Origin: Xanthomonas bonasiae
GTDB taxonomy: Bacteria; Pseudomonadota; Gammaproteobacteria; Xanthomonadales; Xanthomonadaceae
Assembly (NCBI RefSeq): GCF_017163705.1
Contig: NZ_JAFIWB010000005.1
Coordinates: 124,001-188,000, forward strand
DNA: 64,000 nt
Direction of reading: 5' to 3'
In this document: one piece after another, positions 11,429-14,343 of the stretch
Layout of the letters: each line of letters starts with the position of its first letter
Numbering within the stretch: position 1 is the stretch's first letter
Position numbers and translations under genes: made by a program
The notes under the pieces: model-generated
What the model was told of the DNA's origin: nothing
What the model saw: the letters and a program-made list of their open reading frames with translations, nothing else
The model's database searches: none

Positions 11429-12649
11429 TCAGCCCTTCACGCACAGCACCTGACGCAAGGTGTGCACCACTTCCACCAGGTCGCTTTGCGCGGCCATCAC
11501 CGCATCGATCGACTTGTACGCCGCCGGCGATTCGTCGATCACCGCCGCATCCTTGCGGCACTCCACGTGCGCGGTGGCCTCGCGGTGCTGGGCCAGGGTG
11601 ATCTGCTGGCGCGCGGCGGTACGGCTCATCACCCGGCCGGCGCCGTGGCTGCAGCTGTGGAAGCTGTCGCCATTGCCCAGCCCGCGCACGATGAAACTCT
11701 TCGCGCCCATGCTGCCGGGAATGATGCCCAGCTCGCCGGCACGCGCGCTGACCGCGCCCTTGCGGGTGACCAGCAGTTCCTCGCCGGCGTGCGTTTCCTT
11801 CTGCACGTAGTTGTGGTGGCAGTTCACCGCCAGCTTCTCCAACTGGAACTTCGGCAGGCGGTGACGCATCTCCGCCAGCACCCGCGCCATCATCGCCTCG
11901 CGGTTCTCGCGCGCGTAGTCCTGCGCCCAGGACACCGCTTCCACGTAGTCGTCGAACAACGGCTCGCCTTCCATGAAGAACGCCAGGTCCTTGTCCGGCA
12001 GGTGGAAGCCGAGCACGCGGTGCGCCAGCTGCTCGCGCGCCTGCTCGATGAAGTAGCTGCCGATCAGGTTGCCGGTGCCGCGCGAGCCGCTGTGCAGCAT
12101 CACCCACACCGCATCGCTCTCGTCCAGGCACACTTCGATGAAGTGGTTGCCGCCGCCGAGCGTGCCGATCTGGCAATCCAGCTTGTCGGTGCGGATCCGG
12201 CGGTGCCTGGCCTTGATCGTGTCCAGGCGCTCGACCAGCCCCGACTGCGCGATGCGCGTGGCGATGCTGTCGGGCAGCTTGCGATGCTCGCCGCCGCGGC
12301 CGTTGCCGACCGGCACGCTGCGTTCGATGCTGGAACGCAGTTGCGCCAGGCTGTCGGGCAGATCGGCCGCGCGCAGCGTGGTCCGCACCGCGGCCATGCC
12401 GCAGCCGATGTCCACGCCGACCGCGGCCGGGATGATCGCGCCGCGGGTCGGGATCACCGAGCCCACGGTCGCGCCCTTGCCCAGGTGCACGTCGGGCATC
12501 ACCGCCACCCACGGTCCCACGAACGGGATCGCGGCGATGTTGCGCAGCTGCTCGTGGGCCTGCGCTTCCAGCGGCACGCCGCGCACCCAGCCCTTGATCG
12601 GCGTGGCGCTGCCTTCGGCGTGCAGCAATTCGTAGTTCTGCATCCTCAT
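11429..12649 (-). CDS. rtcB: RNA-splicing ligase RtcB
   Basis: GTP- and Mn-dependent RNA ligase joining 2',3'-cyclic-phosphate or 3'-phosphate ends to 5'-OH ends; cytoplasmic tRNA/RNA repair. About 406 residues, the length of E. coli RtcB. Metal and catalytic motifs all appear intact: DVHLGKGATVGSVIP (res 53-67), DIGCGMAAV with Cys83, GGGNHFIEV with His169, LHSGSRGTGN with His186, CHHNYV (278-279), GSMGAKSFIV and SCSHGAGRVMSR with His335, the residue guanylylated in the family. The ATG at 12649 follows AAGGA at good spacing. It lies 55 bp downstream of a slipin gene on the same strand and ends before a strong terminator. No rtcA or rtcR is in the window. Confidence 0.97.
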   Translation of the reverse strand: MRMQNYELLHAEGSATPIKGWVRGVPLEAQAHEQLRNIAAIPFVGPWVAVMPDVHLGKGATVGSVIPTRGAIIPAAVGVDIGCGMAAVRTTLRAADLPDSLAQLRSSIERSVPVGNGRGGEHRKLPDSIATRIAQSGLVERLDTIKARHRRIRTDKLDCQIGTLGGGNHFIEVCLDESDAVWVMLHSGSRGTGNLIGSYFIEQAREQLAHRVLGFHLPDKDLAFFMEGEPLFDDYVEAVSWAQDYARENREAMMARVLAEMRHRLPKFQLEKLAVNCHHNYVQKETHAGEELLVTRKGAVSARAGELGIIPGSMGAKSFIVRGLGNGDSFHSCSHGAGRVMSRTAARQQITLAQHREATAHVECRKDAAVIDESPAAYKSIDAVMAAQSDLVEVVHTLRQVLCVKG

Positions 12650-12704
12650 GTCTTCATTCCTTCGAGGCCATGCGCGGCGCGTCCCTGCGCTGCGCATGGC
12701 GGTC

Positions 12705-13826
12705 CTACTTCATCGTCACCAGCTGCTTCAGCACGCCATCCAGGCCGCCGAACACGGTGAGCTTGTCGATCTTCTCGGTGACCTTCTCCAGCGCCTCCAG
12801 CTCCTTCAGCCGCATCAGCACCGGGTTGTCCTCGATCAGCTTGGCGGTGTTGAGCAGCGAACGCGTGGCGTTGGCCTCCTCGCGCCGGCGGATCACGTTG
12901 GCCTGCGCCGACTTCTCCGCCTGCACCACCGCGTTGAGGATGTCCTTCATCTCGCCGGGCAGGATCACGTCCTTGACTCCGACGCCCAGCACCTCGATGC
13001 CGAAGCCGGTCACCTGCTCGCGCACGTAACCGAAGATGTCCGCATCCAGCGACGCCTTGTCGCCCAGCAGTTCGTCCAGCGTCTTCGCCGACACCGCACG
13101 CCGCAAGCCGTACTGCAGCTCGCGGTACAACTGGTCGCCGTACTTGGCCACCCGCGTCCGCGCGGCGACCGGGTCGGCGACGCGCATGCTCGCGGCCAGG
13201 TTGACGCGCAGGCTGACCTTGTCGCGGGTCAACAGCTCCTGCCCGGACACCTCCACCGACTGGATACGCAGCTCGATCACTTCCGCGACGATGTTCTTGC
13301 GGAAGTTCCAGAACGCGTAGTGCCCCGGTGCCAGGGTCTGCTGCAGGCGCCCATCGACGAACACCAGTCCCGCTGACTCGGCCGGAACGTCCAGCGCCAC
13401 CGCGAAACGCGACAGCAGGCCGAGCTGGCGCAGGCGCTGGGCGACATCCGCCGGCACCGCCAGGCTCTCGCCCAGCGGCAGACGCATCACCTCCACCGCG
13501 ATCAGCCCGCGCCAGTACAGCCGGCGCGTGCCGGGCGCCAGCACGTCTTCGAGCTTGCCCTGCTTGAACACCAGGCCGACTTCGTCGCTGCCCAGGTCGG
13601 CCAACACGAAGGCCTCGTGCAGCTGTGCGCCCAGGCGCGCGATCAACGCATCGGCATCGGCGCCGGCGTAGTCCGGCACGGCGATATTGCAGGTCTTCAC
13701 GTCGATCCGCCGCGACGGATCGAACAGACGGTAGACGCCGGGCGCGAGCACGCGCTCGAAACGCCGGTTGCGATACATCAGGCCGCGCTCGCTATCGCCG
13801 ATCACGACCCGCTTGGTCCAGAACAT
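12705..13826 (-). CDS. Slipin (SPFH/band-7) protein with three N-terminal repeat modules
   Basis: Membrane-microdomain scaffold protein of 373 residues. The SPFH core spans about residues 175-300 (IVAEVIELRIQSVEVSGQELLTRD, then VRVADPVAARTRV and GVKDVILPGEM), followed by a helical EKSAQANVIRRREEANATRSLL segment typical of slipins. Unusually, the first ~185 residues contain three copies of a GLxxxxGxxxxxLAPGxYRxW-like module (about 13-48, 82-116, 151-186). No N-terminal membrane hairpin is obvious. AGGAG precedes the ATG. Slipins are repeatedly found beside rtcB in bacteria; here the pair is an operon, probably preceded by the tRNA-like RNAs. Proposed role: anchoring repair at the membrane (inference). 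Confidence 0.9.
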   Translation of the reverse strand: MFWTKRVVIGDSERGLMYRNRRFERVLAPGVYRLFDPSRRIDVKTCNIAVPDYAGADADALIARLGAQLHEAFVLADLGSDEVGLVFKQGKLEDVLAPGTRRLYWRGLIAVEVMRLPLGESLAVPADVAQRLRQLGLLSRFAVALDVPAESAGLVFVDGRLQQTLAPGHYAFWNFRKNIVAEVIELRIQSVEVSGQELLTRDKVSLRVNLAASMRVADPVAARTRVAKYGDQLYRELQYGLRRAVSAKTLDELLGDKASLDADIFGYVREQVTGFGIEVLGVGVKDVILPGEMKDILNAVVQAEKSAQANVIRRREEANATRSLLNTAKLIEDNPVLMRLKELEALEKVTEKIDKLTVFGGLDGVLKQLVTMK

Positions 13827-14200
13827 GGCACGTTCTCCTTGTGTGGCTCTGGTGATCCGGTCCTGTGGATGAAATCGCCGCGCCGGACCGACGAGCGCGA
13901 GGACGCCACGTTGCGAGCGCCATGGGCGCCGCAACGCTGCAAGAGAAATGCAAGTGCGCGCACGACGTCGCCACGGCGGCCAGTGGGCGCTGTCGGTGCG
14001 GAGGCCGGCGCGTGTCGTCGGCATCGCGCTGCATTGCGATGCGACCGTCGGCGCAGGCGCGCACGTCCAGGGCGGCGTGGCGGCGGCAGCGGCGCTGCGG
14101 TGCATGCGTTACGCAGCGCCGGTGGCGATGCGTGCGGCGTGTCCCGCGCGGCGCGACTTGCTGGGCTTGCGCCCGGTATTGCACATGACGTGACAGGTCA
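13827..14200 (-). other. Leader region between the tRNA-like RNAs and slipin
   Basis: About 375 bp with no gene I can support; several long open frames exist but are Arg/Pro-rich shadows. On the minus strand a hairpin CATGAC-N7-GTCATG (14184-14202) begins right at the CCA end of the second tRNA-like element. Near the slipin end there is a weak sigma-54-like sequence (separate entry). If the tRNA-like RNAs and slipin share a transcript this would be a long spacer; alternatively slipin has its own promoter here. Confidence 0.4.
13938..13953 (-). promoter_or_regulatory. Weak sigma-54-like promoter element upstream of slipin-rtcB
   Basis: On the minus strand TTGCATT-N4-TTGCA has the 16-base layout of a -24/-12 promoter (consensus TGGCACG-N4-TTGCA) but lacks the first G of the critical GG doublet. 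It would start transcription about 100 bases before the slipin ATG. The interest is contextual: rtcBA operons of enterobacteria are sigma-54 dependent through RtcR. With the missing G and no rtcR here, this remains a weak candidate. Confidence 0.2.
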
Positions 14201-14276
14201 TGGTTCTCGGAGCGGGATTCGAACCCGCGACACTCGGATTAAGGTTCCGATGCTCTACCAATTGAGCTATCCAAAA
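14201..14276 (-). ncRNA. tRNA-like RNA, distal element (CUU 'anticodon', C33, ends in CCA)
   Basis: A 76-base cloverleaf on the minus strand ending in an encoded ACCA. The D arm (GCTC/GAGC with GG in the loop) and T arm (GCGGG-TTCGAAT-CCCGC) are perfect and the variable region is GTGTC. The anticodon arm is 5 bp with loop ACCTTAA, placing CTT at 34-36, but position 33 is C instead of the nearly universal U. The acceptor stem starts U1-A72 and includes two G-U pairs (TTTTGGA/TCCGAGA). It could be called tRNA-Lys(CUU) by software, but these departures and the tandem degenerate partner argue for a tRNA mimic rather than a decoding tRNA. Confidence 0.7.
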
Positions 14277-14343
14277 GCGACGTGCCGGAGTCGAACCGGC
14301 GACACGTGGACAAGCCACCGCTCTACCTCTGAGCTAACGTCTG
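14277..14343 (-). ncRNA. tRNA-like RNA, proximal element (degenerate anticodon and acceptor arms)
   Basis: A 67-base tRNA-like fold on the minus strand that directly abuts the distal element with no spacer. D arm GCTC/GAGC with GG in the loop and T arm GCCGG-TTCGACT-CCGGC are intact, and the variable region GTGTC matches its neighbour. The acceptor stem has only five pairs (GACGT/ACGTC; the outer two positions are C-C and A-G mismatches) and no CCA. The anticodon arm is reduced to GTGG-CTTGT-CCAC: 4 bp and a 5-base loop. It cannot decode normally yet keeps the elbow recognised by tRNA-processing and -modifying enzymes. Same strand and upstream of slipin-rtcB. Confidence 0.7.

Follow-up and report, generated by a model that had tools for sequence, protein, structure and literature searches.

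The tandem pair of tRNA-like sequences in front of a slipin gene of Xanthomonas bonasiae is part of a longer, conserved, structured RNA. The pair lies on the minus strand of a stretch of 64,000 nucleotides (nt) of contig NZ_JAFIWB010000005.1 (positions 124,001 to 188,000; the whole stretch is termed the window), upstream of genes for the slipin, a protein with an SPFH/Band_7 domain, and for the RNA ligase RtcB. In the RNA, a non-tRNA 5' domain is followed by the tRNA-like pair, then by hairpins on the 3' side and a long-range helix. A preliminary description of the locus had taken the tandem pair itself as the RNA; the pair is indeed conserved, but it makes up only part of the larger molecule. 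The predicted RNA-slipin unit travels with RNA-repair genes, i.e. with rtcB and, in some relatives, with rtcA, rlaP and the gene for the regulator RtcR.

Structure and covariation of the RNA

The leaders of relatives can be aligned beyond the tRNA-like pair, and RNAalifold proposed 51 base pairs for 50 leaders, for 35 of which one or more sequences show double changes on the two sides of the pair. In the 5' domain, 94.5% of the cells are paired, with 107 double-change cells compared to 25 in shuffles. In the tRNA-like pair, 97.1% of the cells are paired, with 214 double-change cells compared to 51 in shuffles; the pair was counted on RNAalifold's own structure, which leans towards itself, and near-duplicate loci (e.g. 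L040/L066, L042/L104, L044/L089 and L046/L116) were included, by which independence is overstated here as well as in the loop counts, pairwise differences and T-arm counts given below. When the partner columns were slid by 1-3 positions, the paired cells fell to 30-49% (5' domain) and 31-47% (tRNA-like pair). The 5' domain is represented by R1, a 61-position model built from 43 sequences, and ends 23 nt before the first tRNA-like domain in the window.

In most relatives, the long-range helix is formed by GGAAACGCCCC with GGGGCGTTTCC approximately 200 nt further on, or by compensated variants. Scored in a fixed register in 50 of 54 leaders (four were left out for too few columns), the strands were paired to 90% on average, compared to 76% for strands combined across species, and none of 2,000 permutations reached the observed pairing. 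The eight leaders of the window's genus fit this register badly (0.45-0.73 of 11 pairs; window, 0.55), and the helix in the window, read by eye, needs a 1-nt bulge. In a test for the maximal helix, only two of 46 leaders exceeded the 99% level obtained with shuffles; this test is not discriminating because of the high G+C content. Compensatory changes, which the preliminary description had proposed as a check, are abundant in the 5' domain, in the pair and in the long-range helix. Within Rfam 15, tRNA was the sole family above threshold in the leaders.

Variants of the RNA were observed as well. In eight loci (L105, L108, L126, L129, L132, L133, L138 and L140) a shorter T-arm domain, recognized by eye, replaces the second full mimic, often after GGTAAAGCC or a similar stretch; therefore, the RNA has at least two architectures. 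In L136, a Beggiatoa contig, the 5' domain and the tRNA-like pair occur in three tandem copies (2428-3747), which fits the expectation for an RNA gene. Upstream of the slipin gene in L186, a match to the model for transfer-messenger RNA (2941-2996; 32.9 bits, E 1.5e-9, below the gathering score of 47) adjoins a tRNA match.

Features of the tRNA-like domains

The two abutting elements (14341-14201, minus strand) were recovered where the preliminary description had placed them, both above the gathering score of 29 of the Rfam tRNA family (RF00005; 37.1 and 60.0 bits), and the parse reproduced the deviations that had been reported for each. Domain 1 has a 5-nt anticodon loop on a 4-bp anticodon stem, five acceptor pairs and no CCA; domain 2 has seven acceptor pairs including wobbles, the loop ACCTTAA (C33) and an encoded CCA. 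Neither one shows the combination of 7-nt anticodon loop and U33 that characterizes a decoding tRNA. Over the whole window, ARAGORN called only element 2, as tRNA-Lys(CTT) at 14276-14201. The genome contains 58 Rfam tRNA matches, with the window pair counted among them, and ordinary genes for tRNA-Lys(UUU) and tRNA-Lys(CUU) at other loci; the locus is therefore dispensable for lysine decoding, and the possibility raised earlier, that a normal tRNA-Lys(CUU) might be missing elsewhere, does not apply.

Among relatives, the first element carries a 3-6-nt anticodon loop in 45 of 62 loci, and a 7-nt loop with T33 and a purine at position 37 in just five of the 62, which makes decoding unlikely; the latter features are found in 23 of 62 second elements. 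As a control, 36 distinct tRNAs were read from 30 loci of the window's own genome, and 35 of these have a 7-nt loop and T33, the exception being cut by the end of its locus. The mean pairwise difference is 0.69 and 0.55 for the two anticodon loops, compared to 0.07-0.17 for the D and T arms (30 Xanthomonadales rows). An elbow of D and T arms that is kept, together with a freely varying anticodon arm, points to recognition of tRNA shape rather than of a codon. CAT ranks among the two most frequent anticodons of second elements with 7-nt loops (7 of 48), and these elements presumably resemble the elongator methionine tRNA.

Distribution of the RNA and the slipin

The named loci (L numbers) are the best 80 of 354 relatives found with the slipin alignment. 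R1 matches 73 of these 80 loci, 72 of them at E ≤2.2e-4 and L123 at 0.018; 36 of the 80 had contributed to its training, and of the other 44 loci 37 were matched. Conservation beside the slipin gene, which the preliminary description had made a touchstone of its proposal, is thereby evident for both the 5' domain and the pair. The matches always lie on the slipin strand; the distance from the beginning of the 5' domain to the slipin start downstream has a median of 579 nt (range 410-847), and a T-arm follows within 260 nt downstream in 72 of the 73 loci. Three of the seven loci missed by R1 have no more than 260 nt of upstream DNA; L075, L119, L120 and L131 gave no match though upstream DNA is present.

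Independently of R1, a T-arm pattern was found within 1300 nt upstream in 76 of the 77 slipin homologues for which 600 nt or more of upstream DNA is available, compared to four of 270 downstream-side windows and eight of 1540 mononucleotide shuffles, by which a chance origin is excluded. Tandem T-arms 55-85 nt apart were found in 54 of the 77 loci.

At the level of genomes, slipin and a strong R1 match occur in the same eight of 20 congeneric genomes (the window's own included); one further congeneric genome has a weak match (E 0.005). Among 369 genomes of the class, 21 encode the slipin, and ten R1 matches passed strict filters: nine within 1.5 kb upstream of a slipin gene and one immediately behind rtcB at the end of a contig. 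An Rfam tRNA match is found upstream of ten of the remaining 12 slipin loci of the class. Slipin was found in 20 of 349 genomes drawn from across the phylum, and R1 matched 14 of 15 further slipin loci (E ≤0.003); the fifteenth starts approximately 100 nt from the end of a contig. Of the 15 genomes, eight belong to another class, and R1 was found in seven of these. At least two classes of the phylum share the conserved 5' domain.

Seven loci (L079, L112, L124, L130, L133, L139 and L169) have tRNA arrays upstream of the slipin gene, with 5-27 genes called by ARAGORN (27 in L079, 15 in L139, 14 in L124 and nine in L112), a count that includes the unit's own elements; in L169, an array is also found downstream of the slipin gene. 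These arrays recall the stress-induced tRNA array of Anabaena. In L051 (G057:C135), the slipin gene is split into several pieces with other sequence between them.

Association with RNA-repair genes

A gene for RtcB is located near the slipin gene in 56 of the 80 loci: after it on the same strand in 48, before it in seven, and on the other strand in one (L139). In the surrounding DNA of the other 24 loci, some of which are cut by contig ends, rtcB was not found. With the position and presence of rtcB thus varied, the fixed unit is that of RNA and slipin, and, as judged from gene neighbourhoods, the RNA is more closely associated with slipin than with rtcB. The link of the mimics to an RNA-repair operon, as first proposed, is conserved, with the difference that it is the slipin, and not rtcB, to which the RNA is tied. 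At the level of genomes of the class, rtcB is present in 20 of the 21 with slipin, compared to 103 of the 348 others.

In eight beta- and gammaproteobacterial loci, an RtcR-like gene, assigned by sequence clustering, is divergent from the leader; NCBIfam confirmed RtcR for L122, L134 and L204. All eight loci have a sigma-54-like site whose first nucleotide lies 48-58 nt upstream of the 5' domain. The operon of L134 has the order RtcR, RNA, slipin, rtcB, HEAT protein, RlaP and rtcA. In L042, an additional open frame lies between slipin and rtcB (2629-3598).

In Escherichia coli, a stretch of leader, slipin and RlaP is found at no less than 80% query coverage in 1617 of 5426 complete genomes, and the leader alone in 1624 (about 30%); in the records inspected, this unit (e.g. 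L202, 2966-5420; slipin-RlaP) adjoins yjbD/DUF3811. In the E. coli leader, a sigma-54-like site is present, and the RNA is reduced to an R1-like hairpin and a T-arm. This leader gave no R1 match and no Rfam match, so its homology was read by eye. The slipin-RlaP unit of E. coli is possibly a second RtcR-controlled repair operon.

Operon and possible control elements in the window

The features of the locus are summarized in Table 1. As in the preliminary description, slipin and RtcB genes and a terminator follow the RNA: the product of 13826-12705 has the Band_7/SPFH domain of the stomatin/slipin group, the RtcB ligase of Rtc RNA-repair operons is present (PF01139), and a GC hairpin with a T-run was recognized by eye.

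Table 1. Features of the RNA-slipin-rtcB locus, with positions in the window
Feature	Position	Strand	Evidence
Conserved non-tRNA 5' domain (model R1)	14365..14425	-	R1, 66.6 bits (a training sequence of R1; score not independent); covariation
tRNA-like domain 1	14279..14341	-	Rfam tRNA, 37.1 bits; parse; covariation
tRNA-like domain 2	14201..14276	-	Rfam tRNA, 60.0 bits over 14276-14204; ARAGORN tRNA-Lys(CTT); covariation
Hairpin CATGAC-loop-GTCATG; loop conserved, stem varies among relatives	14184..14202	-	By eye, alignment
GNRA-type hairpin GGGC-GCAA-GCCC	14163..14174	-	By eye, alignment
Long-range helix, 5' strand	14151..14161	-	Fixed-register test in relatives; window pairing by eye
Long-range helix, 3' strand	13950..13961	-	Fixed-register test in relatives; window pairing by eye
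Slipin (SPFH/Band_7 protein, 373 aa)	12705..13826	-	Band_7 domain match
RtcB RNA ligase (406 aa)	11429..12649	-	PF01139, E 1.1e-123
GC hairpin and T-run, presumed operon terminator	11360..11387	-	By eye
36-codon open reading frame, possible leader peptide	14719..14829	-	Weak evidence
Inverted repeat resembling a terminator, GAACGCCC...GGGCGTTTT; upstream border or attenuator of the leader	14635..14667	-	Pattern in relatives

A terminator-like pattern precedes the leader in 37 of 54 leaders of the Xanthomonadales group. Many of these 37 relatives also have a short open reading frame before the repeat, of varying length and poorly conserved sequence. A generic terminator scan gave a weak site at 14650-14638, and two sites in the region compared to 2.1 in shuffles. 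The 36-codon open reading frame together with the terminator-like repeat (14829-14635) suggests attenuation by translation. No sigma-70-type promoter-like site was found before the leader in the window.

Two other assignments were considered for the unit and rejected: a defence system, as none of the four proteins tested belongs to a PADLOC family, and mobile phage cargo, as no slipin match was found in phage records.

Properties of the slipin

The preliminary description had placed the RNAs on membrane patches organized by the slipin. This finds no support in the proteins: no clear transmembrane segment was detected in ten slipins (maximum 19-residue hydropathy 0.97-1.74; 1.35 for that of the window), and the N-terminal hydrophobic membrane hairpin typical of stomatins/slipins was not detected. 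The value of 1.74, in the slipin of L039, is borderline and stems from residues 136-154, far from the N-terminus. Three beta units are predicted, for comparison with the array of repeats that precedes the shoulder domain in the major vault protein. When compared alone, the N-terminus is closer to SPFH1 than to the repeats of the major vault protein, all scores being modest.

SPFH proteins have been described to assemble into rings that form domed structures (PMC12624060), and the vault particle, i.e. the major vault protein with vault RNA, is a near comparison system.

Comparison with known systems

A close parallel is found in Salmonella, where a noncoding RNA with tRNA-like arms is encoded in the repair operon of RtcR and RtcB, RtcR responding to damaged tRNAs (PMC7790460). 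This RNA, YrlA (RF02553; operon rsr-yrlBA-rtcBA), resembles the one described here in having tRNA-like arms within an RNA-repair operon, and its order of T-arm followed by D-arm occurs here at the junction of the two mimics. Membership in the YrlA family was rejected, since the matches, which join the T-arm of one mimic to the D-arm of the following one, are below threshold (25.2 bits in the window and 35.0 bits at best, in L039; gathering score, 69). The RNA differs from YrlA by its conserved 5' domain, its long-range helix, and the presence of two tRNA-like domains that are complete. Its protein partner would be an SPFH protein instead of Ro60; the window operon shows slipin and RtcB only, with no search aimed at Ro60.

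In Anabaena, the TrcR regulon comprises a cryptic array of 26 tRNAs, rtcB, the slipin gene alr0740 and an HNH gene, and the array is induced by antibiotics that target translation (PMC10272220). tRNA genes, RtcB and slipin are thus combined in one stress regulon there. It differs in that the genes are scattered, the tRNA array is a real one, and the repressor TrcR takes the place of RtcR; the available part of that report mentions no tRNA-like leader.

In Pseudomonas aeruginosa, the gene context of slipin and rtcB is already in print: a slipin is encoded in the rtcR-rtcB-rtcA locus, PA4582-PA4585 (PMC13086221, PMC8619066). PA4582 and PA4584 are described as conserved proteins of unknown function (PMC8619066), and the slipin PaFlo8 is placed in the rtc locus by a second report, whose main text does not mention tRNA and whose available part mentions no leader RNA (PMC13086221); PA4582 would correspond to PaFlo8. 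Related Pseudomonas loci (L122, L125, L127 and L128) carry the RNA. The nucleotidyltransferase RlaP is reported to occur across several counter-RNase repair systems (Burroughs and Aravind; PMC6514570), and likewise follows slipin in E. coli and is part of the L134 operon. No description of the RNA was found in the open-licence literature of PubMed Central (PMC).

Proposed function and alternatives

We tentatively favour, short of an even chance, a function of the RNA as the RNA partner of a soluble SPFH (slipin) assembly that serves tRNA repair. The RNA would be made from the operon leader, would probably be processed like tRNA at its tRNA-like ends, and would be incorporated as a subunit into a particle of soluble, oligomeric slipin. 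Broken tRNAs, or tRNA enzymes that bind elbows, may be held or recruited by the tRNA-like elbows of the RNA, and RtcB (or RlaP/RtcA) could thereby mend broken tRNAs under translational or tRNA-damage stress. This would be analogous to Y RNA with Ro60, though both the RNA family and the protein differ.

Several observations weigh against this proposal. The RNA was never seen apart from the operon, so a cis-acting leader fits equally well. Two of the 21 slipin loci of the class (L173 and L176) have neither an R1 match (E ≤0.01) nor a tRNA-like sequence, as is the case for the more distant slipin of genome G020 (L180), and one of the 21 slipin genomes (G412) is without rtcB. The folding energy of single sequences is ordinary (z -0.41 for the window leader, -1.61 for the E. 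coli leader). Enterobacteria keep only the 5' hairpin and the T-arm, hence two full mimics are not essential everywhere. The sigma-54-like sites score 12.4-12.9, compared to a background of 12.1 (95%) and 12.9 (99%) per 800 bp; with scores this modest, it is their constant position that carries weight. RtcR was found in just 13 of 40 slipin genomes tested, and the window's own genome has no RtcR, nor a divergent RtcR with a sigma-54 promoter at the locus; control therefore differs by lineage.

Because the RNA is always linked to the operon, control in cis is the strongest rival, though on balance still somewhat unlikely. The RNA would then be the 5' untranslated region of the slipin(-rtcB) messenger RNA (mRNA), and cleavage by RNase P or tRNA nucleases, or binding of RtcB or slipin, would alter the stability or translation of the mRNA, which would thus read tRNA damage. 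The strict linkage on the same strand at a confined distance (73 loci), the closure of the long-range helix approximately 110-230 nt before the slipin start where located, and the terminator-like pattern, often with a short open reading frame before it, in 37 of 54 leaders all fit such a leader. The three tandem copies in L136 and the tRNA arrays that precede the RNA in several loci do not, and two full cloverleaf-like domains exceed the needs of a processing site.

A decoy function, in which anticodon nucleases or other toxins that cleave tRNA are captured by the mimics, the variable loops track these toxins as they change, and RtcB reseals the bait, would explain why the anticodon loop is the fastest-changing part. 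We regard it as unlikely, because the first elements lack a normal loop (3-6 nt in most, and 7 nt with T33 and purine 37 in five of 62) and would be poor bait for anticodon nucleases; neither PADLOC families, for four proteins tested, nor slipin matches in phage records connect the unit to such conflicts. In Salmonella, fragments of YrlA were reportedly not detected after DNA damage (PMC7790460).

The proposed RNA-slipin partnership could also take a more elaborate form, a bacterial vault-like ribonucleoprotein, in which a soluble SPFH cage with extra N-terminal SPFH1-like units surrounds the double tRNA-mimic RNA and, upon induction by tRNA damage, serves as a chamber where broken tRNAs are held and repaired. 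This we consider quite doubtful, and it is weakened by the likeness of the N-terminus to SPFH1 rather than to the major vault protein repeats.

That the elements are neutral or nearly neutral remnants of a degenerate stress tRNA array is very improbable: the arrays upstream in L079, L139, L124 and L112 and the frequent CAT anticodon would fit, but the idea is contradicted by the covariation of the pair (97% of cells paired; 214 versus 51 double-change cells), by a 5' domain conserved across classes, and by a presence that tracks slipin. That the elements are unusual but otherwise ordinary tRNA genes that decode, for which the Rfam scores and the encoded CCA of element 2 could be cited, is hardly credible in view of C33 and the abnormal loop here, a standard loop in only 23 of 62 second elements, and the normal lysine tRNAs elsewhere in a genome where 35 of the 36 distinct tRNAs read have a 7-nt loop and T33.

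Implications

RtcB is widespread and its natural RNA partners in bacteria are unclear; an RNA with tRNA-like domains, which has no family of its own in Rfam 15, represents a concrete candidate partner. A function of the RNA with the slipin in tRNA repair, as favoured here, would offer a role for SPFH proteins of unknown function, and would link tRNA arrays, tRNA mimics and RNA repair; should the vault-like form hold true, the operons of Ro60 and Y RNA and the vault would be variations of one theme. With a reduced leader in about 30% of complete E. coli genomes, the question is testable in E. coli.

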